Origin: Bryopsis sp. KO-2023
Taxonomy: Eukaryota; Chlorophyta; Ulvophyceae; Bryopsidales; Bryopsidaceae
DNA: 64,000 nucleotides
Assembly (NCBI GenBank): GCA_030272585.1
Contig: BSYQ01000006.1
Location: 955,001-1,019,000 of the forward strand
Direction of reading: 5' to 3'
Positions 10,275 through 60,970 of this stretch are shown in pieces (the first letter of the stretch is position 1; each line of letters starts with the position of its first letter). The notes under the pieces are model-generated. The model was not told where the DNA came from. It saw only the letters and a program-made list of their open reading frames with translations, and searched no databases. The position numbers were made by a program, and so were the translations under genes.

Positions 10275-13200
10275 TCAAGACCAACATGAAGAAAAGCTTT
10301 TCGCAACTGCATCTTTTTTTATATTCAAGGCAGTGTTTGTCTTTTTCCTCTGGGTCTTGATTGCAATTTTTAGCAGTCCAATATTGCCAGTTGGCAATGG
10401 ACACCCTAAATTTGCATTTTCCATCCATTCACGCAACTCCACAAAAAACACATCAACGATCTCCTTCAACATGTATGCAATATAAATGACAGCTGTCATG
10501 ATAAATATAATCGACACGACCACTCTCCCTCCATGAGTCATTTCTGGCTGGTCCACTAAATTCCCAATGATGAATGCCAAGGTGGAAATCGCCAAAGATC
10601 CCAGCTCCAGAATATTAAGCTTCGGTTGCATGAACGGCTGAAAATACATCTGGAGAATAATGGAACCCATCATTGTAAAAATTGCAAGGTTTCCTTGAAT
10701 TCCAGTCCCCAAAGTCCGCCCAAACACCACGACTGCAGCAAGCAAGGCTTTCCTGAGCAAGATCACCACTTCCCAGGCTGCCGTATTCTTTTTGTATGCT
10801 TGATACAAGAATCCATATCGCCTGATCACCTCCTCTTGTTCCAGAACATCTGTGCTCCGTGTGAGTTTGTAAAGCAGCCATCCAGGGAATCCTAAGGAAA
10901 TTAAAAGCAACCCAGGCACCCCAACGAAACCGACAAGGAATGCATGAGATCCTCTGTAGCAAACCACACCGGTGTCTTGAACCCACAGCAAGCCTCCCAC
11001 AGGGCTGGCACTCACACAGTAGAAAATCCGAACAAGCGTCCTCGTCATGCTGTACGCATACACAGACAGTCATAAACTGCGATGCATCAATAGCCATGGT
11101 CTGTTGCAGTATGAAATATACTGTGAATTATTTGCTTAAAGGGAAACATGCCCTTCACCAATCATGCAACAGAAAAAGACCTCTCGGCTTTCATTATCCA
11201 AAAATGCTCACCTGATGTAAGACGCTTGCTGGACAGCCGAAAGGGCAACACCTGACCAAAGCATGATATCCTGGAATGATTTTTTGCTCCTCAATGCATA
11301 GGCATAATAGACTACGACAAGCGCAGCCCAGACCATGAATGGTACAACTGCCAAGAATATTGATGTCTGGATGGATCTAGGGAGATGATTTTCCCTCAGC
11401 GAAAATGCACACTCCAATGAAAAAAAATTGCTGCTGTCGGCCACTCCTGAGATGACATCTGCATGAATTAAAAAAAACTGGAACGTTAATTCTTGGTTGA
11501 AAACAAATTCATTGTTTGGAGGAAACTTTTACCACTGTGGAAGCATACGCGAAAGATTAATTTGGTCATATGCGGACTGAAAGAAAACTCACCCCAGGAG
11601 GACAGCACCATCTGCATGCTCCGAGTCCAGCTCACATTGATGACTGCAGCAGATCCAGTCACTTGAAAAAAATTCACAAGGATCTGAAAAGACAGCACAG
11701 GGCCACGTGAATTCTCCATTTTTCTGTCTTACGAGTTGGTGGTTGGAATTTGTGCCGCTAGGCAGCTCACCTTGAAAACGTCGGAGGACCTCAATTTTCT
11801 TTGCTTGGCATTCTGGCGGGTGTTCTGATGCTCTACATCTTCATCCGGAATCGTACCGGAGATATAAGCTGTCAGGTCCAACCCACCATGTGATCCCGAC
11901 GCGAGAGCCCCACTTGCACTGGCAGCAGATGATTGTTCAGCAAGCACTCCTTGAGAATACCTTGCAGCACTTTTCACGAAGATCAGGGACAACAATGCCA
12001 ATGCCAGCATAACCACCCCGATTCCCAGCCCGGCAGGCACCCCTCCCTGACACTCTGTGCATTTGAAGCGACTTCTCCCATGCGATGTGTCGCAGCTCCC
12101 ACACAAAACGTCACTGTAACCCTGCCGCCAGAAATTAAAAAACCGTCATCTCATGTTTTTTTTCTCACCCCTAGAAATGCCCAAAACAAAGTTCTCACAT
12201 TTACCTGTGCACATTGTGGATAATCTCTCGTGGAGTTGAAGTTGGAGGCAAAAAGAAAGTTGGTGCGATTTGGATACGTGCATGCTTCTTCGGTCAAGCA
12301 TGCATGCAGCTGGGATGAGCGAGGCCCAGAGTGCCAGAACCCATCTAGAGGGGCTAACCTCCCTCCAGAGCACTTGGCTTTTTCCACCGGACATGGTGTG
12401 CAGTTCTCATCAGTCACATCAAAGGAGAAGAAATCGTCAGCACATCTGTCGCACCGCAGTCCATCCTCTCTGGACACCTCCCCGATGACACACTCTCGAA
12501 CCGCCACCGTGATGAACTCCGTCACAATCCTCTTCCCATCTTTTGAGGTCAACTTGAAGGACAGATTGTAGTTGTCCGGCAATGCCCTCAGAAACATTCC
12601 AGGCACAGTGAGAGCCCCGCTCATCAACACGCCCTCGCTGGTTACAGGGCTGCCGAACAGCTCTCCTCCAGGTGTGGTCACTCCCACTCTGAGAGTCACA
12701 TTATCCAAGGAGATCTGGCCAAACGCGTCAAGGGGGGTGACTTTGATACCTGGGAGCTCTTCACCACTGGCATGGTCAGCAATTTCAGACGGGGATATCG
12801 ACACAGATTCAAAAATTGTCCCCAAGGGAGCTGGTTTTTGCCTATCCCTTTGTGAAATTCCACCCAATCCACATTTCTGCACGCCCTCCTCCATCGCATC
12901 GGCCGCGCTCCAGCACTTGTCGTCGCAACAAATATTGTTCTTGAAGCTACTGAGAAAAATGTCTGACCCAGAATCCTCGGCTTGGTTTCCTCCAAACTTT
13001 GTGCTGTTAAGTTGCACTTGAGGTTCAGGCACCTCGGATTTCTCCAGGGAGGGCTCGCAATCTGCCAGGCGATCTTCCACAAAGAGGTCGTACCCCAAAG
13101 CTAGGCAATTTGGCTGGGTTGTCTCCTCTGCTGAAACGTGGAGTCCACCTGAATATGCACATTTTTTACATGAGTGATTTTTAATGTTCCTTTTTGGATT

Positions 13201-16200
13201 TGTCTCCACTCTTTTGGACGATGTCTCAGTCTGGTTCACCCTATTTTCATTCCATCCTCGGAAAAAATCCTCGGCACAGCATCACTTGTTACCTCCATTT
13301 TTCGCCTGGTTTCCCCGGATGTCACAGGAGCTGCATCCCCAAGGAACCGATCGGCTGCTGGCAAAGCTAGCAAAATGCATTGCAAAGCCACCTCCCTTCT
13401 CGATAGCAGCATTGTTCCTGATGATGATATTTTCACCACGGAAAATCGCATCCTCAAGGTAAACCCCACCACCAGACTGTGCTGCTGTGCAGTTGATAAT
13501 GGAGGAATTCACGAGGGTCAGATTTGTGGCTGGCAATGCTCTGATGGCACCTCCAGATGCAATTCCTTTCCCACCAAACCCAGCAGCGTTGGAATCAAAA
13601 ATGCATGATTCACACCCGAAGCTTCTCTCTTTGAGATCAACGGCCCCACCGCCTTCCAGGGCAACATTCTCCACAAACTGAACATGTTTGAGCAGCACGA
13701 GATCAAGGTTGGTTTCGAATGTTGCGGTGTCTGACTGGCCGAATGAGACGGCACCTCCAAATTTGGCCGCATTCCCAAAAAAGGATACATTATTCACCAT
13801 GACTTCGCCACTGATGACTGACAATGCTCCTCCTGTGAGTGCTGCCCCCATCCGGAAGGTGGAATCCTCCAAGGTCAATATTTTCGCATGAAAAACATAC
13901 ATAGCTCCTCCACGTGAAGCTACATTTTTAGAAAAGTGGCAGTCTTTGAATTCTGAGACCAAGCCCAAACCAGACATCACCACAGCTCCACCCTTGCTGG
14001 TGATGGATTCCACTCCTCCACTGCTCAAATTCTCACCAGCCCTGTTGCCGGTAAAGTTTGAGGAGTGCATCGTGACAATCGAGTTCTTGTTGCCTTTTAT
14101 TAGATTGAAGCTCTCATCCTTCAAAAAAAGGGTGCAAAAACAGACTGCCTTTTAAAAATATGGAACGCACTCTTGAATGGAAAGATACTTCCAACGGGTG
14201 CAGGGTTTGAACAAGTATCATGCACCAACTTTTTTTTTAATTACCTCACAAAACATTGCTCCACCCTGAAAGCGGGCAACGTTGGCTTCAAAGGCACAAC
14301 GAGACAGGGAAAGGTCAACTTGCTGAACATAAATGCCCCCACCAACATCATTAGCTCGATTCCCTAAAAAGCTCGTAGCTTTGATTGATGCGTTTGGGGA
14401 GGAAGCCTGCAAGACGGTCCAATTTGAATCACAGCAATCGAAACATTTCTAAAGCTACATTTTTGTACGAATACTATTGAATCAAACAAACAAACAAAAA
14501 TAATTACATGCGAATATGCCGCCTGTCATCTATTGCAAAAGGTTCAAAAAATGTAGCACTGTTGAAACAATACCCCTTACTTGAAATTCAATGAGATGAA
14601 TGGCTCCTCCAATCTCTGCGGAGTTGTTTTGAAACAGACTGTCCTCCATTTCCAGGTCCACACCAAGTAAACGGAGACCTCCTAAGCTCGCAGAGTTATG
14701 TTTGAATTGTACTTCCTTTGCTTCGAGATGTGCCTTTCCCTGAACATACCCAAACGAGATATCATTCGGGGACCATGGTCAAAAGACATAATAGCTGAAC
14801 AAGTTCGGATACCGACAAAAACAGCAGTGGATTATTTGGCTCATCCATGTGCTTACTTCACCAGACACTGCCACACTGGCGTCAATCGCGCCCCCTAATA
14901 ACCCAGTGTTCCTTGTGAAATTTGATTTTATAATGGTTGCATTTGTGGATGACAATCTGATTGCACCGCCTTGACTTGTCACAACATTGTCTTGGAAGCT
15001 GCTTCCTTCCAACAGCAAAATGCCACCCTGAAAGGAACAGAAAAAAAAACACCTTGAAAATAGCTTTGATTGCTATTAGGGAGGGGGGATGTCAGGTCGT
15101 GAAGAGATGGCCTATTGTCAACAGAAGGGCCCTGAAAACTATTTTGGCCAGAGAATTGGTTTGTGGACCTACACTGGCATCTATTCCTCCACCAGAATTT
15201 GCTTCATTGTGAACAAAACTGGAATCGACAATGGCAGTTTCGGGTATCTCCACCAGACGAATTGCCCCTCCAAATGTGGTGCTTTTTTCAGCGTCCTGTC
15301 CAACAAAAGGGAAAGAAAGACCTGAGAAGGGAAAACTGTATCTCCTCACATTTTATTTTTATTTTAAATATTTGCACGGTTCGAACAACTTGAAACCATA
15401 GGGAAAAATTCCCGAATTTTCTCAGGCAAACTTTGTACAAACAAGCCCATCACCATTTTGGACAGAATTGGACCAAGCGCCAAGAATCAGTTTGAGAAAG
15501 GCCCCCCCCAAATTGGTACAGACTCTCAAACTGCTGGAACCTGGGCAATGAAACAGACCACCATTCGGTGAAATATTATCTTTGCGGAGGAAGCATACCT
15601 CAAAACTGTTGTTGTCCTCGCTCTTCACCACCTTGTTTTCAGAAAAAGAACAGTGGGATATTTCAAGGCCAGAAATTCGTAAGCCATATGCAGCGCCACC
15701 AGAACTGAAACCAAAGGCATTATTCTTTGTGAAGTTTGAACCCTTGATGGATGCTCGCAAAACAGCTCCAACAAGGTAAAAGGCACCTCCAAAGGTTCCC
15801 CTTGGATCACCAACAGCTGAATTCCCATCAAATGTGCAGCCAGTGATCTTTACATCAGATCCATTGATCTCCTGCAAAAAAATAAACACACTGTCTCGTA
15901 CGGAAGCAAAAAACCAGTGTATTCCTACCATGCACTTTCTCATATGGTTTTCCTTCTTGATTTCGTGGGATATTTTTTGTTCTTGAGGGCAACAATAAAC
16001 TGTATGGATCCTGTGCGGAAGAAAAAACTGCCAAATCAAGAATACCAAACAAGCGATAGCTGTTGCAGTGTAGTGAATTTCTTCCTGCCATGCACCCTGT
16101 TTTCAATTGCCAATCTAAAAATGAATCCCACCTGTGCATGGATGGCAAGGGCCCCGCCAGAAAATTGTGCTTGGTTGTCAGTGAAAGTGGACTTCTTGAT

Positions 16201-19200
16201 CAAAATTTGAGGTAACTCTGAAATGAATAGGGCACCCCCCAAAAAAACACCTTCCTCCTGTGAAATTCACGAGTGAACGCACCTTAACCAATGGTCATCC
16301 AAAAATTGTGTTCATGCTCAAAAGGACCTCTAAGATTTGACAGGAGGGTTTGGGGCATCCAATGGGTTTTAATAATTTTAGGACAGGGTTTTGACAGCAG
16401 GTGTTTTTTTTCCTCATCAAAATGAGAAAGTGGGCGGATAACGTTAGTCATTGGGGGATCAAAAATTTATGTATGCAGAATTGCAAGTATTGTAGATTCA
16501 GGCATGATTAAAGCAAAAGCCAGGCAGAATTGTCAACAAATTCGGCAGGCGTGCATTACCGCTTTTTGTCCCATCGCTTTGTTCCTGTTGAATTTTGATC
16601 CGGAGATTTTGACACTTCTGAGGAAAGAGCCAAAGATTGCCCCTCCTCCTCCTGCTGCCTCCCCTCCACTCCCCGCCACATTGTTTGAAAATGTGACATT
16701 GTCAAGCGTGATGGACGTTCCATTACCAAGAAGTGCCATTGCACCCCCAAAGTAGGAATCGCTGAAACTGTTTCCTTCAGCCGAGTTTTTTTCGAAAGTC
16801 GTTCCTCTGACTTCAAGGTTTGTGGGACCTGATTCCAATGCCTGGATTCATACAAATAAACAGGAAAATCCAAAAAACACATGACTAGTGGGGATATGAA
16901 AACATTCGAACCTGGTTGAAATGGGAAAGAATCTGTCGAAAATTGAGTTCAATGATACGAGAAGAATTCGCCGTTCGTTAAACTGGATACTTTCCTACTG
17001 ATTTCCTTTCTTTGGTCGAGCATTTGGGGGAAACTATCGTTATTGGATAGACTGCCCAACCAAGGAACAGTCAAGTGTTTGAGAACACTGTCAAGCTTTT
17101 CTTTTTCTTTCTAGGAATAGCAATAGTTTGGTAGTCAATGTTTAATCTCACCTCCACATAAAGAGCCCCACCGATGTTTGCCTGGTTTTTGGCAAAGTTG
17201 GATTCCAGAATCGAGATCTCAGCAATGCCAACAAAATTCACTGCCCCTCCTCGTATGAGCACCGATTTGTTCTCATTTTCCACGGCAACACCCTGTGAAA
17301 AGAGCACAGAAGATTAAGAACCCCTCATTGAAATTGGATTATTCATCATTGCACTCTGAAACTGGAATAAGCTATTGTCTCCTAGCAAATATCGAATGTG
17401 GCACAAAACATGTGAAAACATATTTGTTGCAGGCCTAAAAACCTACAGATCCTTTTTCAGGGTTTCAATAATCCTCTTCCAAAAATTCGCTTTGCTCACC
17501 TCGTTCGCTGTGTGTGGATCAAAGTTCCCCACTTGGTTCCTAACAAATTCTGACCTCGAGATTTTTATCTTTTTTGATCGAGCCACATTCAGAGCACCTC
17601 CAGCGACTCCAGCTTTGTTTTTAACAAAAGTGCAGTCTTTCAATGTGGCCTCCGTTCCATTATTAAACATTGCAATAGCACCTCCCACTGCGTGAAAACC
17701 CTCATAACCAAATCTTGCATGATTTTTTCTTAAAACACATCTCTCCAACTCTAGGCTCGTCACATTGGGCAGAGAGCTCTGACATCACGGCATAAGAAAA
17801 TAAATATGAGGTTATATTCAGAAACTGTTAAAGAAAGCAAAACTTTTTGCTCCAGAATACAACCGAATACTTCCAAAAATAATCTCACCTGTACATGAAG
17901 TGCACCACCTTGAAAGGAATGATTTTCAATGAAAGTGCTCTCCTGCACGGAAATCATCGTTCCATTGAAAGCGCTAATAGCCCCTCCAACAGAGACCGCT
18001 GAATTGTTCACAAAAGTCGCTCCAAAAATCTGTGCATTTAATTTTGGTCCGAGGAACGCTATCCCCCCTCCTGGTCTCCAATTGGAGTCATTCTTGTACT
18101 CGCCATAAACCCGGTTCCCAACAAACTCCACATCCCTGATGTTCACTTCTGAACCCTTCTCACCCTAACAGAAAGTCACACTGAAAATTATATCAATGCA
18201 CTTCATACAAGGCAAAAACATGCTCCCAAATACTGCGGGATTCAGCCACTGAACATTTATTTGTCCATCCACTCACGCACCTTGACAAAGATTGCTCCTC
18301 CTTCATCAAAGGCCAGGTTTTCAATGAAGCGAGAGTCTGACAAATTGAGATCAGAGTTCTGTACATAAATAGCCCCGCCTTGCTCAGTAGCATGGTTGCT
18401 TTCAAACAAAGAGTCCATGACGACTGTAGACCCCCCTTTCGCAACAGAAATTGCCCCTCCATACACCCCCTCGTTATCCTTCGTTGTGATATTTTCCATC
18501 TGAATGGTGGAACCAATCGCTGAAACGCATGCAGGTCCCTTGGTATTTGCATTGTTTTCGAATACTATGTCCTTCAAAATCACATTTTCAGATTTTTTTA
18601 CGTGCAACAGCCCTGATGTACTATTTATATTGCACCCGACAAAGGAGAATCCAGCAAGCAACACATCATTGGCCCTGGAAGGAAAACAACAAAACCACAC
18701 AATGTGATTTCTTTTTTTTTGGAGGACATGTTGGTAAAAACTCATCAGCCAGATGTCCTTTAATGAGCATTGAGAAAGCAGATGTCAACACCATGAGCAA
18801 ACATGACTATTTAAGTGTGATGTTGTCGCGAATTGACAGTTTTCGACCTTATGTCAACGGCTGGCTGCGTTTTGTCATCCAGGCATGGAATAGTCGTCCG
18901 CGACCCTTTGATCGAAACTGCGCTCTTAATCTTCAGGGTATCATCAAGCTTCATTTCCGTGAGATCGAATTTGACCTCTGCCTTCTCAGGCAAACAGTTG
19001 AAAACCTGCTGAATGCCACCTTCGACGCCAGCAAGCGTGTCGACATCAAGCAGTATAAAACCCGTGGAACTTGATAGTTTTCGTACATCCTTGCACCCTG
19101 GAGCGGGACCACCTAAACCGTTAGTGCTTCGGGCTTAATCTACAAAGCTTTCTTCCGGACTCCAGTGCGAGCCTTGCTCGCTAACCCAAGCGATCCGACT

Positions 19201-19300
19201 AGAGTCGCAAAAAGCTGTTGTCACCAGTTTCTTCTTGGGCGGTGGTCCCTGGGCTGAGAGCGGCGGCCAGCACCACCGCCAACAAAACTCCACGCCACAT
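10275..19300 (-). CDS. P2: giant Pmp-repeat beta-helix protein with C-terminal multi-pass membrane domain
   Basis: Nineteen exons, all joined by GT-AG introns in consistent phase: 19225-19300, 18848-19112, 18281-18674, 17889-18164, 17500-17778, 17152-17292, 16560-16841, 16132-16257, 15599-15871, 15173-15295, 14857-15027, 14575-14739, 14248-14406, 13293-14118, 12205-13148, 11771-12121, 11593-11683, 11212-11458, 10275-11049. This gives about 1,987 residues with no interruption seen. Order: signal peptide (MWRGVLLAVVLAAALS), conserved 88-residue module, a long right-handed beta-helix of Pmp repeats (GGA[IV] and F..N motifs), a Cys-rich part (CDRCADDF, CTPCPVEKAKC, then LCGSCDTSHG and CTECQGG), and about nine membrane helices including YGFLYQAYKKNTAAWEVVIL. 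Pmp repeats form solenoids on cell surfaces. Receptor, adhesin or channel role is inference. It lies tail to tail with P1 and is the mirror partner of P3. Confidence 0.88.
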
Positions 19301-19596
19301 TGGACTCGAAAAGCCGCGAGTGCGCACGTTGGCTGGCCATGGCGAACCCTGTTTGACCGCGAAGTCAGTCATTCCAAACTGCAGTCTGGGGTCCTCCGCC
19401 TCCGAAAACTGACAAACTCCTCAATTGGGTCGTGTGCAGAGCTGAGCTGTGGTGTGTCCCACCGCCGAAGAGAGTGGTTGTACGAATCACGATATGATTT
19501 ACTCAGCAGAGATTATCATCCCCCGGTCCTGGTGAACGCGCGCCGGTCTGCCCCGCTGGCGAGTCACCTGACCTTTTAAAAAAGGAGGGTCCAGAT

Positions 19597-19862
19597 CAGC
19601 CTATTTTTTGTGGCCCAATGTGGCCACAGCAAATAATTAGAATGACACATTTTGTGGAACATCCACTCAAAGCTTGTAAGGCCTCGGGCCACAGCCAAGA
19701 AATCAACCGACATTCCACAAGAATCAAAACCAAGCCTTATAATTCGTATTATGAACTTGTGGCCACATTTTAGTTTTTTCGGACAAATTGGGGTCACAAC
19801 AAGATGAAATGGCCAAATTTAGGGCCACTTTGGGGCCAGTGAAATTGATAAAAAATACACTG
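19597..19862. mobile_element. hAT-like MITE, left-arm copy
   Basis: A 266-bp non-coding element with near-matching ends: CAGCCTATTTTTT at the left and AAAAAATACACTG at the right (the right-arm copy keeps CAGTGTATTTTTT at the matching end). The interior is rich in GTGGCC/GGCCAC. The flanks carry TCCAGAT on both sides, like a degenerate 7-8 bp target duplication. CAGTG ends and an about 8-bp target site are typical of hAT elements. It sits only about 38 bp from the inner breakpoint of the inverted duplication. Confidence 0.55.
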
Positions 19863-19888
19863 GACTCCAGATTACTGCCCTGCAGGCA

Positions 19889-20284
19889 TGATCGCCCCTC
19901 ATCCCGACTGAGCCCCACTCTGAATTCCCATCCGCATCAGCCACCGTATGCACTGCATTCGCTGATCATGCGAGTGCTTTTCTGAAAGAGATTGTTGAGG
20001 CCAGGGGCTTGGAGAAGGAACATCCATTCGTTTTTCCAGTCACCCCTGGGCTTGCGGACATCGTTCCGGAGGAAGTCAAGCTGATCAGGTTTGAGACTGT
20101 CCAAGAGGCGGGAAGGAACTGTGGGGAATCCAGGTTCTGGGCTGGGGTCAATTTCAAGCCTGCAGTGGCAGCTGGAGAGAAATTGGCAGAACGGGTTGGG
20201 GAAAAGTCGTATGAGTTTGTTAAGAACCTGGCCATGGGGGTGGTACCAAAAAATTGTTGGTGGTGCACTCAGGCTTCAGGGTGA
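19889..20284 (+). pseudogene. C-terminal exon fragment of a vanadium-haloperoxidase/PAP2-like protein
   Basis: The frame reads SPLIPTEPHSEFPSASATVC at its start, then TAFADHASAFLKEIVEARG, a variable loop, and SRFWAGVNFKPAVAAGEKLA followed by ERVGEKSYEFV, with a stop at 20284. In plant and algal vanadium-type haloperoxidase/PAP2 proteins the corresponding motifs are PLI.TPpHPEYPSGH and RF.aGvHF..a...G. Here the catalytic-type Gly-His of PSGH and the His of GVHF are replaced (PSAS, GVNF), so enzyme activity is doubtful. Nothing upstream encodes the rest of the protein: the 5' side is the inverted-repeat boundary. The 5' end could be a splice acceptor near 19887. Best read as an exon left stranded by the rearrangement. 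Confidence 0.6.
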
Positions 20285-43128: not shown

Positions 43129-44040
43129 GATGTGTTTTACCATTTTGTTTTTGTTTTTTGTTTTTCTTTCTCAACACTCCAAAAGTGTTTTGACGATTGG
43201 TCTTTGAGGTGTTTTTTTTTGGATTGTGGATGCACGTGTGTGTTGCGACTTTGACTTTGAAGCTGTAAGTTTTGCCATTTTTTCCTTGATAGTCTAGAAA
43301 GTATTTTGGCAGTTGATCTCTTGTTTTTTGTTTCTCTTTTTTAGAAAAAAAAGAATTGTAGAAGGCACTTATTCTGTTCATCATGAATGAGTCATATTTG
43401 TGTGTTGGATACAAGGCGGCTGACCTTGGGTTAGTCAGTTTTATGTGAGTTGGGAACAGTTCTTGAACACGTGATTGGTATTGTTGTGGTTTGGATTAGT
43501 TGGATGGGTATCAGTGTATGGTTATGACGCTGTATAGTTGTTGGTTGGAACAGTTATGGATCGAACGAAAGTATTTGACGGCGCTGTGGGTGACCAAATT
43601 TGACTCTTTTCTCTGTTGTAAAAGACCACATTCTACAGAATTAATTTAAAAAAAATAGTTTCCTTTCGTATTTATGAACATATTCAATCCGAGAACTTTG
43701 TCTCAAGTTTTTTTTTTTTCGCATCGTGTGCCCTTGGGCTTCGGGTTTCCTTCTTTTGGGAAGACTTTTTTTTTTGCTTGGCAATGTGGAATCTTTTGGG
43801 TGAGATCGTAGGATGCGAACCCTATGTACTATGAGTGATCTGGGATATACAAACAAACAGAACTATAAAAAGGGGTGAAAAAACGTCATTGCACGAAAAT
43901 CTTCAGATAGTTGGGAGTTGGCAAAGTACCTTGGGAAGAATGAAACATAGAGTTAGAAAGCATGAACAGCTTTCCGAAAGCTTTCTCCCATGCATGGGAG
44001 CCCCCTCTGAAGAAGAAAAAAAGGCCCAGTTGCAGCAAAA
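43129..44040. other. 3' flank of P3 inside the arm
   Basis: Mirror of 9378-10274. T-rich, without a coding frame. Carries the P3 3' UTR and ends at the outer breakpoint. Confidence 0.55.
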
Positions 44041-44044
44041 GGGC

Positions 44045-44540
44045 TTACTTCAAAAGCAAGAGTTGTTCTCCAAGGTGGATGAATGGGTGATTCAGGTTCT
44101 TTCAGTTTTACTGGGCAAGTTCTTGTCAGAGAACAACAGCAATACAGTTCAAAACATCAACAAAAGTATTTAAGAGCCCACAAAAGACCCCAAACATATT
44201 TGTGTTTGTGGAGAGGTAGCAAAGCCAGCAAAATGTGGTAAATGTTCCGGCTCGCCTTGGAAAGCGACAAGCCCATCACACAAGAATTTCTAAGAAAATA
44301 AGATGTTGAAAGCTGTAGCTAGGGAATCTCAAAGCCGGAAACAGCACCTCCAAAAACAAGACCGGCCTCGTTGCTGTGGAAAGTTGATTCATCGATGGAA
44401 CACTTCAATTTCTCTCCAAGCACATCCAATCCCCCCCCTCCGAGTTGGACAAATTGCCATAAAAAGTTTCTTTTGAATCATGAACCGGTGACCCTCAATA
44501 TTGAGTTTGCTTTCATTAGTTGGTGTCAGGTATTAGGAAT
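44045..44540 (-). pseudogene. relic B: decayed Pmp-gene exons
   Basis: Minus-strand translation retains pieces of a long solenoid exon in several frames: LNIEG near the start, then a stretch equivalent to SDGGAVALFGERLKCSIKES and SLFLENSCGV of P4 (here GEKLKCSIDES, NEAGLVFGGAV, and YFLRNSCV-like remnants). Frame changes are spread through it, so it is no longer coding. It is closest in type to the P4 exon at about 56275-56546. It abuts the outer end of the right arm. Confidence 0.6.
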
Positions 44541-48156: not shown

Positions 48157-51100
48157 CTAACGGTTTGACGTCTTACAGGGAAAACATGAAGAAATGCTCT
48201 TCACAAAAGCTTCCTTTTTTTGTTCAAGATCGTGTTTTGTCTTGTTCACTTTGTTTTTCACTGCAATCATCAAAAGTTTAAAATTGCTGGTTGGCAGTGG
48301 ACTCCCTGAATTCGCGTTTTCCATTCGTTCACGAAGCTCCACAAAAGCCACGTCAAAAATCTGCTTCAGCATGTATGCGATATAAATGCCAGCTGTGCCA
48401 ATAAAGATGACTGACATGGCCACTTTCCCTCCATGAGTAATTTCCGGCTGATCCACCAGATTCCCAATGATAAATGCCAGGGTAGATATCGCCAAAGATC
48501 CCAACTCCAGAAAATTCAGTCTCGCTTCCATGAAGGGTTGAAATTGCGTCTGGAGAATAATTGAGCCAACCACAATGATAAGCGCAAGATTGGTTTGGAC
48601 TCCTTTCCCCAACGTCCGCCCAAACACCACGATCGCAGCAAGCAAAGCTTTCCTGAGCAAAATCACAACCTCCCAAGCTGCCACATTTTTCTTGTATGCT
48701 CGATACAAGAAGCCATATTGCTTCAGTGCCTCCTCCTTTTCGAGGATCTCTGCGCTCCGTGTGAGTTTGAACAGCAGCCATCCAGGGAATCCTATCGAGA
48801 TTAACAGCAGCCCAGGTGCTCCAACAAAGCCAACAAGGAATGCATGAGATCCCGTGTAGCAACGCACGCTGGTGTCTTGGACCCAGAACAAACCTTCCAC
48901 AGGGCTGACATCCACACAGTAAAAAATCCGAACAAGCGTCCTAGTCACGCTACAAGCATATGAAGAGTCATGAACTGCACACCACCTCAGCAGCAACTAT
49001 TGTTTTCTGGAGTATGGGCAAGCCAGGTAGTGCATTGCAATGGCATACCATATAAATAATTCCATGAAACAACGAAATGCATCACCCGCTACAGAATCAA
49101 CGCAAACATATCGCTCATGAGCGCATGACTGGTGATCACTAGTCATGCATGGTAACAAAAAAAAGCCTTAAGGTTCGTCATTATTGAGTGGTTTTGAATC
49201 ATCCAACAGTGTTTGCCAGACATGAAATGAACAGAAATGCCACCTGATGTAGGATGCTTGCTGCACAGCCAAGAGTGCAATATAAGACCACAACTTGATA
49301 TCCTGGAAGGGTTTTTTGCTCCTCAACGCATAGCCATAATGAACAACAACAAGCACAGCCCAGACCATGAATGGCACAAATGCTTGGAAAACTGATGTCT
49401 GGATGGATCTGGGCAGCTTTTCCCCCAATGAAAATGCACACTCCAATGAAAAAAAATTGTTGCTGTCGGTCACTCCTGATATAGAATCTACAAACAAATA
49501 AACAGAAAGCTGGTCACTTGCTGATGAACGCCATATTATTATTATTATTATTGCCAATGCTGACAGAAGATTTACCCCAGAAGGCAAACAACATCAGCAT
49601 GCTTCGAGTCCAATCCACATTGATGGCTGCAGCGGATCCAGTCACTTGAAAAAAATTCACAAGGATCTGGAAGACAACACACAGGCCACGTGAATTCTCT
49701 ATTGTTTTTCCCTCTCAGCTTGAAACTATGTGTACTGGTTGGGTTCTCACCTTGAAAATTTCGGAGGATTTTCTTCGCGGGGCATTCTGGCGTAATCTCT
49801 GTACATCTTGATTTGGAATCTCACCAAGGATGAAGGATGGAAGGTCAAACCCACCCTGGGATCCCGATTGAACAGCACTACTTGCGCTCATGCCATTTGA
49901 TGATTCACCAAGCACTCCTTGAGAATACTGTGCAGCACTCCTCACATAAATCAGGGACAAGACTGCCAATGCGAGCATAACACCACCAAGCCCCAACCCA
50001 GCATGCAGTCCTCCCTGACATTCTGTGCATTCAAAGCGCCTTTTCCCATGAGATGTGTCGCAGCTCCCACACAGCATATCACTGTACCCCTGCCGCCAAA
50101 AATTGTGAAATGTTACCTCATGCCCAAGACCACATTTATTCCCCCCCGCCCCCCCCCAATGACAACCTTGTCACATTTACCTGTGCACATTGTGGGTAAT
50201 CTCCAGGGGAGGTCCAATTGGATATAAAAAGAATGTCTGTGCGATTCGGGTATGTGCATGCTTCTTCTATCAAGCATGCATGGATTCGGGCTGAGCCAGG
50301 ACCAGAATGCCAAAACCCATTCAGGGGGGCCAGTCTGCCTCCAGAGCATTTGGCTTCTTCCACTGGACAGGGTGTGCAATTCTCATCGGTCACATCAAAG
50401 CTATAGAAATCATCAGGGCATCTGTCACACCGCAGGCCTTCCTCTCTGGAGATCTCGCGAACGACACACTCTCGAATCTCCACCGATATGTCATCTGTGA
50501 CAATCCTCTTCCCATCTTGTGAGGTCAACTTGAAAGACATGTTGTAGGTGTCAGGCAATGCCCTCATAAACACTCCAGTCACAGTGGTCGTTCCCCTCAT
50601 CAAGACGCCCTCACTAGTCACAGGGCTGCCAAACAGCTCTCCTCCAGGAGTTGTAACTTCCACTCTGAGGGTCACATTATCCATGGAAATCTGGCCAAAG
50701 GAATCAAGGGGGGTGACCTTGATTGCTGGAAGCTCCTGGTCACTGGCATGGTTTGGTACTCCATAAGGGGATATTGACACTGATTCAAATATCGTTCCGA
50801 GGGGAGCTGGGTTTTGACCATTTCGTCGCAAAGAAGTTTCACCCAGTCCACACTTCTCCACTCCCTCATCTAATGCACTGGTCTCACTCCAGCACTGATC
50901 ATCACAGCAAACACTGCTCTTGAAGTTGCTGAGAAAGATGGCAGACCCAGAATCCTCCACACTGTTGCCTTCAAACACCGTAATGTCGAGTCGCACCTGA
51001 GATTCAGGCAAATTGAATTTCTCACAGCCTGCAGCATTTTCCATCAAGGTATTGGGCCCCAATGCTTCACAATTCCTGTGGATTGTCTTATCCCCTGAAA

Positions 51101-52307
51101 CATGGAGTCCACCTGAATTTACACAATTATACATGATTAATATAGAATGTTCAATACACAAGAGAAGGAAAAGATTTGTTCAGAATGTCATCCTCTAAGA
51201 TGACTAAGCCCCATGTGTCAACACTCTTTGTATTAATTGATTGATTGATTGAATAGGTTACATCCTTTGCACAGCATCACTTGTTACCTCCTTTTTTTGC
51301 TTGGTTTTTGTGAATGTCACAGGACCTACACCTCCAAGGAACTGAATGGTTGCTGGAGAAGGTGCCGAAATGCATTGCAAAACCACCTCCATTTTCAACA
51401 GCAGTGTTGTTCCCAATGGTAATATTTTCACCGTGGAAGATCGCATCCTCAAGATACAACCCTCCACCAAAATATGCTGCTGTACAGTTGATAATGGTGG
51501 AATTGAGGAGGGTCAGATTTGAGGCTGGTAGTGCTCTGATGGCACCTCCGGATCCGATTTCATTCCCATCGATCCCAGCACTGTTGGAATGGAAAAGACA
51601 CGATTCACATCGCACACTCATCTCTCTCAGATCAATCGCTCCACCGCCCTCCATTGCAACGTTATCCAAAAACTGAGTCAGTTTGAACACCACCAATTGA
51701 GATTCGCTATTGAATCTAAAGCTTCCGGCCTGAGTGAACAAGACAGCACCTCCCAATCTGGCAGAATTTCCAATAAACTTTACGTTTTTCACACGAATTC
51801 CTGTGTTGATGATTGTCAGTGCGCCTCCATTGAGTGCTTCCCCGTTCAAAAAAGTGGAATCCTCCAAACTCAATACAAATATATCTTGAAGATGCATAGC
51901 CCCTCCACTTAGAGCCAGGTTTCTTGAAAAGTTGCAATAATTGAAGTATGCGATCAATCCCAGTCCAGATATCGCCACAGCTCCACCCTTGCCATTGACG
52001 GAATCCAGTCCAGCAGCATGAGAATCCTTAAAACCCTCACCAGCAGTGTTCTGAGTGAAGTTTGAGAAATTCACCCTGACAAATGAAGGCTTGTTGCCTT
52101 GTATCCAATTTGAGCTCAAATCCTTCATCAACATAGGAAAGAGTGCATCAAGAAATATAGATGGGTTTACACCTTGTGAAGATACTCTTCCAAGGCCTGG
52201 AAAGTGCTCATAAAAATTAAAGCAATCCCATCCAGAAAATCTTGGAAAAATCTCTTAAAACAACTCGTGAAAACACCAAAAAAGAAAGAAATTGAGTTGG
52301 TGGCAGC

Positions 52308-52348
<41 letters not shown>

Positions 52349-55300
52349 ATGATCTGGAACCATTGTCAATTTGCTGCTTTCTTTAATTACCTCACAAAAA
52401 AATGCTCCACCCTTGAAGTGGGCAATGTTTGTATCAAAGACACAATGGTAAAGGGAAAGATTTCCATTCTGCACATACATGCCTCCACCGACATCAGCTC
52501 CATTTCCTATGAAACTCGTAGTCTCGATTGCAGCATTTGGGGAGGAAGCCTGCAAGATCATTCGGTTTTGACCAGAGCCAAATAATCCCCCAAAATAATG
52601 CCCCGATTTTTTTTTTTAATGGCTCATCAGCTGAAAATACTACAACAAAAGTCCTTACTTCGAGTTGAATGAGGTAAATAGCTCCCCCAACGTCTGCAGA
52701 ATTGTTTTGACACAGACTGTTTTCCATCTCCAGGCTCACACCATATAAACGAAGACCTCCTCCATGTTTTGGTGTATAGTTGTCTTTGAATGCTACTTCC
52801 TTCATTTTGAAAAGTGACTTTCCCTGAACATACCCCATGAAAATTTATAACCCAACTTGGAAAACATTCGATGCAGCAGCCAACTTTTCAAATCAGAAAA
52901 GAACCCACAAAGCAAACAATTTGGAGAATATAGTCAAAAGACGTTCCAGTTGTTTGGTTTGCTAGGATAACAAAAGTCTGACATATTGCCAAAAAAAAGT
53001 TGGCTGTTTTTTTTCCTGCTTTTTGCATGTTCTTACTTCCCCAAGAGAGCTTCCCTGACTTGAGGAAATCGCACCCCCCCCCTGCGAACCCGCGGTATTC
53101 ATCGTGAAATTCGATTTCACAATGGTTGCATTTATGGAATTCGAATCAATTGCACCACCACTACTATTTTCTTTCGTTGCAACATTGTCTTGGAAGCTGC
53201 TCCCTTCAATGGACAACATGCTGTCCTGAAAAGCACATAAATAATAACATTCGGCACATATTGACAAATGTTTCCTCAAAAAATAAAAAAATAAAAATAA
53301 AAAATAATAATAATGTGTACCACTTCCATCACAGGGGAAGATCAAAATATGCCAGTATGAATATGTGCCTTATTTTCCTCATCATTCTTTCCAATTTTAC
53401 CAACATACTCCTCATCTGAATCCATTAAAAGAAAAGTTTCCCTGCCACCTCTGTGACAAGCCCTCTTAATTTTATCAATGCGTTGGGGGTTAACATTCCG
53501 CCGTGAATGGATTGTCTTAACAAAATTCTGAAGAGAAGTGTATTTTTTTGAACGTACCTGGATAGCTATTCCTCCACCGGATGTCGCTTCATTCTGGACA
53601 AAACTGGAGTTCACAATGACAGTTTTAACTACTTTTGCCACATAAATCGCTCCCCCACCTGTGCGAGGAATTTCAAGGTTTGTGCTTCTATTTACACTCT
53701 CCTGTCCCAAAAGACAAAAAAAAACCAACTGTCTTTCAGAAAATGAACTTTTTTTTTCTTCCAGTGAAAATTATCACATTTCTTGAAGCATGCTGACAAT
53801 ATAATGACAATTACATTCTCAGCGTGCTTCAAAAAATGTGATTACACAGAGACAGATTCCTCATTCTGTGCAAGCCTCAGGGACAGCATGTGCAAATGAG
53901 TTAACCAGTTTGGAGGGAATTAGACTAAAACACCAAGATTCAGTTGTACAGTTCCACTCCAGAGTTCAAGGGATCTCTTGAATGGAAAACAAAAGTCCAT
54001 TTTTCTTTCTATTTTCTTTCTTATTGTTTTTTTTCCACCCCCTTCTGAAGTGGGATGAGTTTCAAGATATGGGAACCCCAGCAGCAATAAAACACACCAA
54101 CATTCGGCATGCATTCTGACGAAATATACCTCGAAGCTCTTGTCGCCGCCAGTCACCGCCTTGTTTTTAACAAAAGAAGAGTCGTATATTTCGAGGCTGG
54201 CAATTGGTTCGCAGGAAACAGCCCCACCAGAATCAGTAGCATTGTTCTTTGTGAAATTTGAAGCCTTGATGATTGCTCGCAAATCATCTCCTACAAGATA
54301 GAGGGCACCTCCAAAGGTTCCTCTTGGATCACCGACAGCTGAATTCCCATCAAATGTGCAGCCCTCAATATTTACATCACATCCATCAACCCCCTACATT
54401 TGAAAAAAAAATGGCATGGGAGAGGCACAAAAAAAAACAGACATACAAACTCACGTAGAATTTAAAAAAAAATGTGCTTCTTGTTCCCAATGTCTTTTCC
54501 GTATCCAACAGCCATACAGAAATTTTATGAAAGTAACTTCAAACCAAAGCGTTTCATCTTGCTTTTTTAAGTTTTTGAGGGCAACTTTAAGAGTTGTGAC
54601 GGGTGGGGAAAAAAACAAAAAACCTTTTCCAGGGAAGAGAATATCAGACATGCAATTCTACTTGCAGTAACACTACTAATATTGTAATAACTGTAGTTTG
54701 TTCATCATGCTGTGCATCCTGCATGCAATCGTCAATCTACAAGTGAATCCTACCGTTTCCAGGATGAGAATTGCCCCGCCATATCTTGCTACTTGGTTGT
54801 CAATGAAAGCGGAATCTTCGATTGAAATTTCAGATACGTCTTCAAGAGAAACGGCACCCCCACCAATTGTGCCTTCCTGTTTCCCATCATCCTGTGGAAA
54901 ACATGAAACCTTACTTGAAATATCACAAATGTGTGCCCTTCAATGAAAACATCCAAGGAAAAATCAAAAAGTAGGAATTATATAGACGTTCAGGAATCGA
55001 TGGTAGTTGAAAAAATGACGTTCGAAGGGATTCGGAATATATTCCGAATCCACTATATAGTATGGGGGCCACGTTCAGCTGTCAATATCTAAGGAAGGTG
55101 AAAACAGGTCCAATTCGATGGATGGGGAAATCACTCAACAATAAGCTGAACACCATAATTATGGTGTTATAACTGATAACTGATCCATCAAATTAGACCA
55201 TGGCTTCACAGCAGTTCGAATTCCGTCTAAAATTTTAGGGAATTGTTCAAGAAAGATCATGAAAAATTTCTGATAAAGTATAAGTATATGATAGAAACAA

Positions 55301-58300
55301 ATTCCTGTTTAAAGTGCAGCTAATCAAAACATGTTTGCAAAAGCAAAGAAGAGGAAATCTTCAGGGAGGAGGTCTACATTACCGCTCGTCCCTCCACCGC
55401 TTGGTTCCATTTGAATATGGATCTAAATATGTTGATGCTTCTCATTTTACCCCCCCATATTGCCCCTCCTGCTGCTAGTCCATCTGTTGCTCTTTGTTTT
55501 GCTGTATTTTCCAAGAAAGTGACATTGTTGAGGATGGCTGAAGTTCCATTTCCAAAAAGTGCCATTGCACCCCCGTAGAAAGCATCACCCAGGTTTTTCC
55601 CTTCCGCAGAGTTTCTTTTAAATGTTGTTTCTCTGACTACAAGATTTGAAGTATCTGGGGCGTGTGCCTGGATTCATGGATGAAAGATATATTTCAAAAC
55701 ACACCACATATTTCTGCTTGGTGGGCAAAAATATTTTGTCGGCCACAATCGAATCCAATGAATCAACAGTGATTTACTGTTGTGTATTTTGACTAATTTC
55801 CTTTCGTGTTCCTGGATAAAAATCCCAGCCAGACAAACAATCGAGTGAGAGCACTCAATTAAGCTTTTTTCAAGGTATCTAGGAACAGCCATTGATCAAA
55901 AAACAGCACCAATGCTGGATCTTACCTCTACAAGAATGGCCCCCCCATCTTCTGCCCGATTTTGGATAAAGTTGGATTCTAAAATTGTGACCCCGGGAAC
56001 ACCCGATAAATGCACTGCCCCTCCCCATGCGGCTGCTGATTCAATTCCACCTTCCCCAGATGCACCCTGAGAAAAAAAATGGCAAAAGTGCAACATAAAC
56101 TACAAAAAAAGGTCAACTTCCGAGCGCACTTGAGTGAATGACACAGGTTCTTGCAGTTTCGATATGAGATGTTTTGTCTGGGAGCATCATGATCCACAGA
56201 GGCTCTGCAACAAACTTTTGTTTTTGGAGAGGTGGACATGCAATCCAAGAGACTGGCATTGACATTGACTCACCTTCGAGAATGGCAGGTCCACCCCACA
56301 AGAATTCTCAAGAAATAGAGATGTCGAAAGCGACAGCAAAGTGATCTTTGAGCCGAAAATAGCACCTCCTTCACTGTCTGCCTGATTCCTTTGGAAAATA
56401 GATTCCTTAATGGAACACTTCAGTCGCTCCCCAAACAGAGCTACTGCCCCTCCATCAGAAATCATCGAGTTGCCAGTGGCGGAATTTCGTTCAAATGCTG
56501 ACCCAGTAATACCTAATATTAGGTTTTCCACGCCGCCGCCCTTGCAGTCGACCAAGAATAGACATCGTCAGTTTTGCAAATGCCAAATTGCTCGGGTGTT
56601 TTGTTTTGATTTGGAAACGTTCATCAGGATTCCAACTTCACAAATATGAAAAGAAATTGACTCAGCCCTGGAATATTCAAGAGAATGTTTCACATTCTTG
56701 CAGTTTTCTATTTCCATTTTTCTTTCTTGGATTGTTCTGGGCAAGATGAAAACCAGAAAAACGCGAGATGTGATCCTCAGATTCTGTCTCCTGATAAACT
56801 TCCTAGCCAATAAACAATTGTTTAAACAATGGATTGCAATCAAGCACTCCATCAAGCCTTCAAAAATTCAAAAAAAAATGGTGATCACTAACATCTCATG
56901 TTGAATCTTACTGACACAAGAAGTGCCCCACCGCCTCCTGCCTGATTGTTGCTAAATTTGGATTTCACAATTGCGATCTCAGGAACGTCTGACAAAGACA
57001 CTGCCCCTCCCCATGTGAGTACTGATTGGTTTCCACTTCCCATAGAGGCACCCTGCGAGATAAGATTAGAATAGATTTCAAGTTCCAGAAAAGAATTGAT
57101 TTCGAGTTTTAGAAAAGAATTGATTTCAAGTTTCAGAAAAGGAGTTATTAAGGCGAACAGAGGAAGGAAGGTGTTCTTCGAACCGGACTTGATTGAATGC
57201 AAAAATTTGAAGTTGAAACTTGCATAGGATCCAAGAAATACCCCCAAACGATCTCTTGTTTTGTGGAGAGATGAACAAACAACCCAAGATGGTGTTCCCA
57301 CCGGCTCACCTTGGAGGATGGCAGATCCACCCCACAAGAATTCTCCAGAAATAAAGATGTCGAAAGCTTCAACCAACCCATCTCCAAGCCGAAAATAGCA
57401 CCTCCTTGACGGTCCGCCTCATTCCTTCGAAAAATCGATTTCTCAATGGAACACTTCAGTTGCTTACCAAGCAAAGCCATTGCGCCTCCATCAGAAAGCG
57501 TTGAGTTGCCAGTGGCGGAATTTCTTTCAAATTTTAAGCCAGTGATACTCGCTCTGTTCTCCATGATTCCATCACTCTTGCAGCCAAAAGACAAAGTACA
57601 CTATAAGTTTTGTGCATAAAACCAATTGGGTGCTTTTAAATATTTTTTTTTAGAGAGGATTTGGAAACTTGATCAAATGAAGCGTAAGAGAGCACTCAAT
57701 CAAGATTTTGGAGAATCCAAGGACAGTAGAAATAGGGAATCTTACCACCACAACAATTCCACCGCCTCTTTCTGCCTGGTTTTGAGTGAAGTTGGATTCC
57801 GCAATTGAGATGTAAGGAACATCCGACAAAGCCACTGCCCCTCCCAGTGTGAGTATTGATCTGTTCCCAGTTTCAACAGGAGTAGCCTGTAAAAACAACA
57901 CAATTGGGAATATCGAGACCAATAATTGGTTCTTTTTCCCCATTGCACTCTGAGAGAGAGAGAGAACTTGTTGTATCCCCAGAAAATGTGTGAATCATTC
58001 TTGCCGGTCCAAAATCCTCAACAACCTTTTTTAAGTGGCCACCCCAGAGCCTCTAAATTCTTTTAATTTTTTTGTAACATTATTTTCACACAGAAGACAT
58101 ACCAAGGTTCTGTCGACGCTTTTTCCCACCTTGTTTTTAACAAACGAAGAGTGGGATATTTCAATGCTGGTAACTGTTCTGCCATACACAGCCCCACCAG
58201 AATCAGTAGCATTGTTCTGTGTGAAATTTGAACCCTTGATGGTTGCTTGCAAATCATCTCCTAAAAGATTGAGGGCACCTCCAAAGGTTCCTCTTGGATC

Positions 58301-60970
58301 ACCGACGGCTGAATTCCCATCAAATGTGCAGCCCTCAATATTTGCATTACATCCATCGACCCCCTACATTTGAAAAAAAAAATGGCATGGGAGAGACACA
58401 ATAAATAAGAAAGCACAGACGATTTTAAATAAAATTTAAGAAAAACTGTGTCCTCCTATTCTACAGTTTCTGATGATCCTTTTCTGCTTTCTGACTATCA
58501 AGGAACCATGTCTGGAAATTCCCTTCTTCATTACACTTGATTTTTTTGTTCTTAATAAGGGCGACCGTGAAATGTGTTATCGGAAAGACAATGTCACAGT
58601 CTAGGAGAGAAGATATGTATTTAGATTGAGATTTATCTGCACCCTATGTTCAATTGCCAATTTTCAGGTTTATTATCCTCACCTTGGCTCCAATGAAAAT
58701 TGCCCCGCCGGAATATGATGCTTGGTTGTCAGTGAAATCAGAATTTTTGAATGATATGTCAGCCACATTTCGAAGATAAAGTGCACCTCCATAAGATGGA
58801 CCTACGTGTCCCTCATCGTCCTGTGGAAAAATATGAAACAAAAACAAAAATATAGGGCACATTTTAAGATGTTAAAATTCCCCCCTCCCCCTCTACACCA
58901 CAAACTTGTGTTTGTGGAAATCTGGACCTGCCTTGTTCTGTCTATATCACCATAAAGTTAGATTCTTGCAAATCTCGACATCTCAACATGACCCTTATCT
59001 CTGTGAGTGCTGAGTTTCTCCCACATTTTTACTGGAAAGCTACGTGAAAATTCCAGACCCCTCACTGGAATTTTTTTTCCATCATTCCACTCTGAAATGG
59101 GGAAAATGCTCTTGTATCCTGACAAAAATCAGTTGTGGAAAACGTTTGAAACATCGTTGCGGACTGTGAGATTCTGTAACTTTTTGTTTTGTTTTTTTTC
59201 CATTCCGAATTTTCTTACAAAGTACTTCTATTAAGAGAGCAAAAATTTGCTTCACTCACCCTGCTTGTCATAGGCAGACTTATATGGCCCACCCGATTAC
59301 TAAGAAATTCAGACCTCAAGATGTTCATCCTTTTTGATTCAGCAGCATACACAGCACCTCCAAACACTCTAGCTTCGTTTTCAATGAAACTGGTGTCCTT
59401 GACCGTGACCTCAGATCCATTACCAAACATTGCAATGGATCCTCCCATTGCAGAAAACCCTTCAAGATTGCCTTTTGCATGATTTTTTGTGAAATAAGAT
59501 GTACCTACTTTCAGGTGAGCCGCATTGGGAAGAGAGCTCTGCGAACATAACACAAGAGGAAAAATGTTGCCAGCAATATGTTTTTTTTTTGAGATTATGT
59601 AATGCAAAATAATTGTTGAAAATGGATCTCACCTCCACGTAGATTGCACCACCTTGAAGGGACTGATTTTCAATGAAAGCACTACCATGGATGGAAACTC
59701 TGGTTCCATTTGAAGCGCTAACGGCACCACCATAATTGGTAGCTACATTGTTCGCAAATGTGACTGCCGAGATTTCCGCATTCAATTTTGGTCCAAGGAG
59801 AGCTATCCCTCCTCCTGCTCTCCAATTCAAGTCATTCTTATACTCGCCATAGACCCGGTTTCCAAAAAACTCCACAACCCTCAGGTTGACTTCAGAACTC
59901 TTCTTCTCACCCTAGTATTGAATCACACTCAAATTATATCCATGTAACACAAATATTTGCTATGAAATCACCTCTGGAGACATGCAAAAACATGCAAAAT
60001 CTGATTATTCTTTGACGCACCACAGCAAAGATTGCTCCTCCATCATCAAAGGCCGAGTTTCCAGTGAACCGAGAATCTGACAAGTTCAAATTCGAGTTGT
60101 GCATGTGGATAGCCCCACCTTGCTCAGTAGCATGGTTGCTTTCAAAAGAAGAGTCGACAATGATGACTTCAGATCCTCTCACCAAAGACATGGCCCCACC
60201 ATAGAATCCCGTGTTGTTTTTTGCTGTGGTATTTTGTATCTCAATAGTGGAATCGATTGCCAAAACACACGAAGGTCCATCGGTGTTCATATTGCTTTTG
60301 AATACCATGTCTGTCAAAGTCACGTTTTCAGCTCCTTTCACTTGGATCAGCCCTGATGTGCTGTTCAGATTGCACCCGACAAAGGAGAACCCAGCAACCA
60401 GCACATCATTGGACCTGGAAGGAAAGCCACAACAATACATGAATGTATATGGTGCTAAAGCCATTCCGGTCGAGAAGATTTTATACATCGAGCAGTGTTA
60501 GGATCATTTCCCCACCTGATGTTAATGGTCGGCTGTGTGTTGTCCTCCAAACAGAGAACGGTGGTGCGCGATCCTACGAGTAAAACAGGGCGATCGATCT
60601 TGAGGGTATCATCGAGCTCCAATTCCGATAGGTTAAATCGGATGGCTGCGCGTTCGGGCACACAGTCCAAAACGTGCTGAAGGCCACCATCAACAGCAGC
60701 GAGTGTGTTGAGATCAAGCAGTATAGAACCCGTGGAACTCAACAGCTTTCGCACGTCCTTGCATCGTGGAGCCGCCTCATCTGAATCGAAACAGCAGCTG
60801 CTTTAGGTTTGATCTACACAGCTCCCTTCAACTCCAGTGCAATCCCAGTCCAAAACCCGTTCGCCCTCCCCATACGCAATATAACTTTGGTCACCAGACT
60901 TGTTTTGAGCTGCGGTGCCTGTAATCTGAGCAGCGGCCAGCAGCACAAGCAACGCGAATCCACTCCACAT
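48157..60970 (-). CDS. P4: largest Pmp-repeat surface protein of the cluster, about 25 exons
   Basis: First exons by splice sites: 60895-60970 (signal peptide MWSGFALLVLLAAAQITG), 60516-60780, 60021-60414, 59633-59911, 59260-59538, 58683-58820. Further solenoid exons lie at about 58096-58364, 57745-57887, 57305-57580, 56910-57055, 56275-56546, 55925-56069, 55382-55670, 54755-54893, 54131-54395, 53560-53703, 53038-53226, 52664-52825, 52393-52553, 51290-52125. The stalk and membrane exons are at about 50175-51113, 49750-50093, 49575-49667, 49242-49488, 48157-48955. Estimated length about 2,400 residues. Domain order is as in P2/P3, including CGSCDTSHGKRRFECTECQG and YGFLYRAYKKNVAAWEVVIL. It has roughly three more short-long exon pairs than P2/P3. 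No interruption seen in exons. An in-frame ATG lies upstream at 61048, but the signal peptide favours 60970. It is tail to tail with SecB. Confidence 0.85.
51236..51254. repeat. short ATTG microsatellite in a P4 intron
   Basis: About four to five copies of ATTG, non-coding, in the intron before the long repeat exon. Confidence 0.7.
52311..52347. repeat. (TG)n microsatellite in a P4 intron
   Basis: About 18 uninterrupted TG units between the exon at 52393-52553 and the long repeat exon. Read on the P4 strand it is a CA repeat inside the intron. Confidence 0.95.
55028..55051. repeat. perfect 24-bp palindrome in a P4 intron
   Basis: GGATTCGGAATA followed by its exact reverse complement, with no spacer. 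A second palindrome, CACCATAATTATGGTG, lies at about 55149-55164. Both are in the longest P4 intron (about 54894-55381), which the family otherwise lacks; a small hairpin-forming transposon is possible. Confidence 0.8.
57061..57140. repeat. about 24-bp tandem repeat, 3 copies, in a P4 intron
   Basis: Units of the form GAATTGATTTCAAGTTYCAGAA repeat three times just beside the splice acceptor side of the exon at 56910-57055. Confidence 0.75.

Follow-up and report, generated by a model that had tools for sequence, protein, structure and literature searches.

The window analysed here is a stretch of 64,000 nucleotides of contig BSYQ01000006.1 (positions 955,001 to 1,019,000, forward strand) of the green alga Bryopsis sp. 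KO-2023. It contains a cluster of large, intron-split genes whose predicted proteins begin with a signal-peptide-like sequence, continue with a Pmp-type beta-helix and a stalk rich in cysteine, and end in a module of about nine helices with a resemblance to the TRP family PF06011. This architecture of Pmp solenoid, stalk and multiple helices in large clustered proteins is confirmed. It suggests sensors through which external touch or binding gives rise to a signal within the cell, and the favoured explanation, to which about even confidence is given, is that these are clustered cell-surface TRP-like channels, possibly permeable to Ca2+, that are worked through a giant tethered solenoid. The location, conduction, gating and ligand in this explanation are proposed by inference. 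The window is eukaryotic in character, having long intron-split genes and pieces of retroelements at either end.

Comparison of the window with itself identified five sites with related coding blocks and one large inverted duplication. Three sites are complete genes (C, D and E; Table 1), and these could be rebuilt with frames open across 19, 19 and 25 exons. The others are a truncated gene (B) and a fragment (A), so that the 'four or more members' described in the first-pass annotation holds if incomplete copies are counted, there being only three complete genes. The gene models are the output of a splice-aware script, followed by hand correction at junctions common to the copies. All 60 introns of the final models are GT-AG, with a median length of 164 nucleotides (nt) and a range of 83–491 nt. 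Introns that agree between copies, in position to within 3 columns and in phase, are 18 of 18 for C and D and 17 of 18 for D and E after hand correction. Before correction these figures were 12 of 18 and 11 of 18, with the mismatches mostly in the middle of the helix. Because the junctions were chosen partly for agreement between the copies, the intron-agreement figures are biased towards the models, and the open frames over many exons are the harder evidence. The splice phases show only that one continuous frame through the exons is possible. An alternative start of E, the ATG at 60970, aligns with the starts of C and D and is also the end point used in the first-pass annotation. The N-termini of C, D and E are signal-peptide-like on hydropathy and by eye, as had been claimed, and the lengths of the final models agree with the 2,000–2,400 residues that had been stated. 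At the protein level C and D are 94.6% identical, C and E 64.1% and D and E 63.7%.

The Pmp solenoid accounts for approximately 1,160–1,600 residues. The Pfam scans of D pieces, and the PDB searches with spliced D sequence, were made with pieces from earlier D and E models. Residues 1–552 of D match Chlam_PMP (PF02415) with an E-value of 1.2e-15 and 56.3 bits, above the cut-off of 20.6, which is the result that the profile check proposed for the solenoid had looked for. When four helix exons of C were scanned singly, two had Chlam_PMP matches above the cut-off (37.1 and 22.4 bits), one had a match below it (19.4 bits) and one had a Beta_helix match below the cut-off of that family. No NCBIfam family was found for four single exons. 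The motifs themselves are far more frequent than expected from composition, with 21 GGA[ILV] and 29 FxxN in the C helix region and 31 and 42 in that of E, against maxima in 1,000 shuffles of 3 and 13 for C and 4 and 15 for E. An intron-split eukaryotic Pmp solenoid, as proposed in the first-pass annotation, is therefore well supported. Such repeats have already been described in eukaryotes, since Pmp motifs are present in Trichomonas (PMC10715098), which has Pmps of its own (PMC6701047), and PF02415 proteins occur in more than 100 non-chlamydial species, which are not said to be all eukaryotes (PMC10715098).

Structure prediction is in agreement with a solenoid. The exon at 39278–40120, including a few intron bases and aligned with its two counterparts (three sequences), was predicted by AlphaFold2 to be a beta-solenoid. 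The best model has a mean predicted local distance difference test score (pLDDT) of 78.6 and a predicted template modelling score (pTM) of 0.83, and the mean pLDDT values of the five models are 78.6, 77.3, 75.7, 64.8 and 24.0. Of the 387 matches (E up to 10) in a Foldseek search with the best model, none has an E of 0.001 or below. The top match is the PL6 alginate lyase 7dmk (E 8.7e-3, probability 0.98, TMq 0.38), followed by pectate lyases, tailspikes and pentapeptide-repeat proteins. These matches appear to be a generic beta-helix signal only; chlamydial Pmps likewise match only generic PDB structures (PMC10715098). Repeated FxxN and GGA[ILV] motifs and a predicted beta-helix, by which Pmp repeats are recognised, are thus found together in these proteins.

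Each of C, D and E has four CxxC pairs in the stretch that separates the helix from the first membrane segment, confirming the CxxC stalk that had been noticed. All three stalk exons match Ephrin_rec_like (PF07699), the best E-value being 0.0019, with bit scores that are below the cut-off of 23.1 where they are given (C 13.7, D 14.8 and, for a longer construct, E 15.4). The profile of stalk exon 15 alone matches no PDB chain. The only PDB match of the stalk/first-helix exon profile is a penicillin-binding protein at E 1.6, which was taken as chance.

The C-terminal module, about 490 aa when spliced, has nine hydrophobic segments in the reading adopted here, in keeping with the nine or so membrane helices first proposed. 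This reading places the N-terminus outside and the C-terminus inside, a topology that fits both the hydropathy peaks and the loop charges: lysine and arginine together number 27 in 173 inside residues against 8 in 98 outside residues in D, and 30 in 175 against 9 in 97 in E. In D there are two cysteines in one outside loop. The motif YGFLY..Y....AAWEVVIL.RKALL, reported from the first pass as conserved, is preserved in full in the last exon of each complete gene, while A has F in place of the final L. The first-pass annotation had left the C-terminus unassigned, which was too strong. PF06011 TRP matches all four last exons (E 31.5, D 28.0, C 27.2 and A 23.1 bits, of which only E is above the cut-off of 28.5; best E-value 1.1e-7), and by eye the matches are in a consistent register across the exons. 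No Pfam family was matched by the controls, which were the last exons of D and E in reverse and the hydrophobic open reading frame (ORF) 22386–23297. It is most likely, on the basis of these profile matches, that the C-terminus belongs to the TRP family PF06011 and is Flc/Pkd2-like.

Other assignments of the module were rejected. Polycystin and G protein-coupled receptor (GPCR) families are absent from the Pfam scans of the last exons and the spliced membrane module, so that of the families to be checked against the C-terminus only TRP was found and neither a GPCR nor a polycystin identity was retained. A chlamydial-type autotransporter was dismissed since no barrel family is present in the Pfam scans; neither a Pmp middle domain nor an autotransporter barrel was found in scans of exons or spliced parts. 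The D module also has a sub-threshold Ion_trans_2 match (11.9 bits, cut-off 22.5). No ML or ML-like domain was found at E up to 10 in three D pieces covering residues 1–552 and 912 to the end.

In the mechanism proposed, the proteins would most likely reside in the surface membrane, their solenoid exposed to the exterior and their tail facing the cell interior, and the module would be a cation channel, probably for Ca2+, or a channel-like sensor. Binding to the stiff solenoid, or a pull on it, would be passed through the cysteine stalk to gate the channel. Several observations weigh against this explanation. The cut-off of PF06011, 28.5 bits, is passed only by the last exon of E, longer spliced constructs score lower (25.5 and 26.8 bits for E, 14.1 for D), and the profile is covered only at positions 233–398, approximately, of 426. 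The nine segments were picked to fit nine. The AlphaFold2 model of the last exon, from four sequences, is all-helical but unusable, with a pLDDT of 45.3, therefore the fold of the module is unconfirmed. Neither the last exon nor the D membrane module has a match among PDB chains, and no pore motif was identified. In the solenoid, the part of D from residue 912 to the stalk reaches only 16.0 bits with Chlam_PMP, which is below the cut-off. Fungal PF06011 proteins include flavin transporters as well as Ca2+ regulators (PMC9600462), and family membership is therefore no proof of conduction. Taken as a whole, the interpretation in the first-pass annotation is partly supported. Structure prediction, which it had named as a route to refutation, gave none (one exon a beta-solenoid, the last exon all-helical at very low confidence), and its guess of a receptor, adhesin or mechanosensory channel was probably right.

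The arms of the inverted duplication are separated by a spacer of about 13 kb, and their long aligned pieces are 94–95% identical in DNA sequence. Being inverted copies at this level of identity, C and D are not independent members of the family. Their divergence is patchy, ranging from 84.4% to 99.8% identity per 500-column block within the gene. Among the 401 mismatches between them there are 125 gaps of 3 bases or fewer, and 500 random placements gave 61 at most. This fits exchange between the copies. A three-way count of the copy that matches E found no strong one-sided tract (the largest being 9 vs 4), and exchange with E is therefore not shown.

Substitutions between C and E at codon positions 1, 2 and 3 number 461, 349 and 681, and the ratio of nonsynonymous to synonymous change (dN/dS) is 0.38. 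By region it is 0.46 in the helix, 0.23 in the post-helix region and stalk and 0.27 in the membrane module for C and E, and 0.58, 0.22 and 0.20, respectively, for C and D; the D/E value, for the membrane module, is 0.28. These are Nei-Gojobori counts without a significance test, split by region for the pairs and parts given. The six additional exons of E, relative to C and D, are all in the helix. From exon 5 on, E exons of approximately 270 nt alternate with ones of approximately 140 nt, and introns in the helix have phase 0. This is consistent with a two-exon unit having been duplicated; the closest pairs among the internal exon-pair duplications of E, at 54130–58363, are 80–86% identical in DNA sequence. 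The ectodomain would thus grow by phase-0 exon-pair duplication (~270 + 140 nt), with the stalk and membrane module changing more slowly. A fast head with a slower stalk and module is what one would anticipate if a sensing head that varies were joined to an effector that stays constant.

The main rival to a channel is an adhesin or recognition receptor, in which the solenoid binds cells, prey or matrix and the module only anchors the protein or recruits cytosolic partners, with no ion flux. This is a possibility of some substance, although on balance an unlikely one. Pmp and BspA proteins of Trichomonas increase adhesion when expressed, and most Pmps of T. vaginalis have a single membrane helix (PMC6701047). 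Also in favour of this rival, the solenoid is the fastest-changing part of the Bryopsis proteins and is six exons longer in E. A conserved TRP-like module of about nine helices is, however, more than an anchor needs, and its dN/dS of 0.20–0.28 shows that it is under constraint.

It is improbable that the proteins instead belong to an internal membrane, as Flc-like transporters or regulators in the homeostasis of Ca2+ or flavin, and have their solenoid on the lumenal side. Fungal PF06011 proteins function in Ca2+ homeostasis and flavin transport, one of them at the vacuole (PMC9600462), and a signal peptide cannot separate the plasma membrane from endomembranes. Yet most of the fungal members tested carry an ML or ML-like domain rather than a solenoid (PMC9600462), and Pmp solenoids are known from surface proteins (PMC10715098). 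A structural role in a cell covering, with the membrane module holding the coat in place, is less probable again: the ectodomain is large, repetitive and cysteine-containing, but the TRP-like module is conserved and the length of the helix differs between the copies. Decayed copies or an assembly artefact, such as two haplotypes joined as an inverted repeat, can be given hardly any weight, for although C and D lie in inverted arms at ~94–95% identity and A and B are truncated, the frames of C, D and E are open over 19, 19 and 25 exons with GT-AG introns and dN/dS below 1, for which reason a pseudogene array was also discarded, and E is 36% diverged from both C and D, therefore the family exists even if C and D are alleles.

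The coordinates of the genes, of parts of them and of the duplication arms are given in Table 1. The coding blocks of B are stop-free up to about 9440, having met the duplication arm at 9372, and B is considered truncated because its sequence runs into this arm; no stalk or membrane similarity was found in it. The DNA similarity of A starts at 1107 in all three comparisons, immediately after the integrase sequence of a retroelement, which lies within 1–999. At the other end of the window, an ORF with retroelement gag and aspartic protease (61165–63504) is present just upstream of the E start on the opposite strand, and is followed by a sub-threshold reverse-transcriptase match. A direct repeat, 30249–32886 vs 44886–47592, has aligned pieces that are 75–83% identical and is apparently unrelated to the Pmp genes; none of the three ORFs scanned from it (31389–31880, 46666–47199 and 32584–33093) matches Pfam at E up to 0.01. 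The open frame at 22386–23300 on the + strand encodes 304 residues with several hydrophobic stretches and has no Pfam match, and the ORF beside it (21477–22343) has only a sub-threshold Polbeta match. No tRNA (ARAGORN, bacterial code) and no Rfam match at gathering scores were found in the window.

Table 1. Positions of the Pmp-type genes, selected exons and duplication arms in the 64,000-nucleotide window (aa, amino acids)
Feature	Position	Strand	Description	Basis
Gene C	10275..19300	-	Complete, 19 exons, 1,986 aa: predicted signal peptide, Pmp beta-helix, CxxC stalk, TRP-like membrane module	Homology, Pfam, final model
Gene D	34132..43128	+	Complete, 19 exons, 1,991 aa; inverted near-copy of C	Final model, Pfam
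Gene E	48157..61033	-	Complete, 25 exons, 2,429 aa (2,408 aa from ATG 60970)	Final model, Pfam
Gene B	3943..~9440	+	Signal-peptide-like start, then beta-helix blocks; no full spliced model, position of 3' end approximate	
Gene A	~1107..1798	+	Last exon only, 5'-truncated, directly after retroelement integrase sequence	
Remnant resembling E beta-helix exons	44188..44438	-	Just outside the right duplication arm	
Left arm of 10.5-kb inverted duplication	9372..19900	.	Contains gene C	Self-comparison
Right arm of inverted duplication	33133..44044	.	Contains gene D	Self-comparison
C exon 14	13293..14118	-	Large beta-helix exon	D counterpart (39278-40120) modelled as beta-solenoid
C exon 15	12205..13148	-	Post-helix region and first part of CxxC stalk	Weak Ephrin_rec_like match
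C last exon	10275..11049	-	Helices 5-9 in the reading adopted, with YGFLY..Y....AAWEVVIL.RKALL	PF06011 TRP 27.2 bits
E last exon	48157..48949	-		PF06011 TRP 31.5 bits (scanned piece 48157-48966, few intron bases included)

Of known proteins in the PDB, the one most like these is chain U2 of 7w5z, a 3,634 aa Tetrahymena thermophila protein annotated as 'Transmembrane protein, putative'. With residues 1–552 of D joined to 912–1531 as the query, the whole-sequence E-value is 5.7e-13, and the chain is also matched by a shorter query (E 0.00055). The likeness consists of three collinear stretches, two in the helix (5.9e-5 and 0.043 when taken singly) and one in the stalk (0.0019) ending in GY..LC..C. 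The membrane module differs in having no match there, and only about 240 residues follow the stalk match in U2. As the membrane module and the stalk exon 15 profile have no PDB match, an architecture common to U2 is supported for the helix and stalk only. The 7w5z entry is a model of mitochondrial complex IV. The other three of the four PDB matches are antibody chains (E 0.28–0.44) and were taken as chance.

Fungal Flc proteins and S. pombe Pkd2, which we take to be a PF06011 member, are like the Bryopsis proteins in their similarity to this family. Pkd2 has an extracellular domain and a nine-helix membrane domain (PMC11277609), and PF06011 is present in fungal Flc proteins, which have a role in Ca2+ homeostasis and mostly possess an ML or ML-like domain (PMC9600462). 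The ectodomain in the fungal proteins is small and ML-like (PF14558; PMC9600462), whereas here it is a Pmp solenoid and stalk. The Pmps of Trichomonas vaginalis have eukaryotic FxxN/GGA repeats on a C-terminal membrane anchor, but this is usually one membrane helix with an ATPITK motif (PMC6701047), in contrast to about nine helices and a stalk. A single C-terminal helix with ATPITK was not found in the Bryopsis proteins, in which several hydrophobic segments follow the stalk. Chlamydial Pmps have the FxxN/GGA[ILV] beta-helix rungs (PMC10715098), whereas introns and a TRP-like C-terminus are present here.

The modules are each known, but the join of Pmp solenoid, cysteine stalk and PF06011 TRP-like module was not found described in open-access papers, in titles and abstract starts among the matches listed. 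No confirmed relative emerged from sequence searches of viral contigs, for which the queries were the beta-helix exon, the stalk/first-helix exon, the last-exon alignment and a consensus of 61 residues, or of contigs from bacteria and archaea, for which the last-exon alignment was used. This absence says little because the patterns were from close paralogs and the collections were viral, bacterial and archaeal. Automatic annotation has given many protist proteins names such as 'TRP C-terminal domain-containing protein', and the join may already be present, unremarked, in databases.

The join would give Pmp-repeat eukaryotes a concrete, testable function, the coupling of extracellular binding to ion flux, and the cluster allows an ectodomain that grows by exon pairs to be compared with a more constrained channel-like module. 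Polycystin-1 and -2 also have a giant ectodomain on a TRP-type membrane module, for which a mechanosensory role has been proposed. The parallel is one of arrangement and not of compared sequences; the polycystin ectodomain is a different one, and no polycystin family was present in the Pfam scans. A bolder extension of the channel explanation, put forward tentatively, is that the Bryopsis proteins are a protist counterpart of the polycystins, in which a Pmp solenoid of the chlamydial-adhesin kind may be the direct lever of a TRP/Pkd2-type Ca2+ channel. Clustered genes whose evolution proceeds through inverted duplication, phase-0 duplication of exon pairs and patchy exchange could then provide a repertoire of channels for recognition or mechanosensation, in which the heads vary and the effector stays constant.

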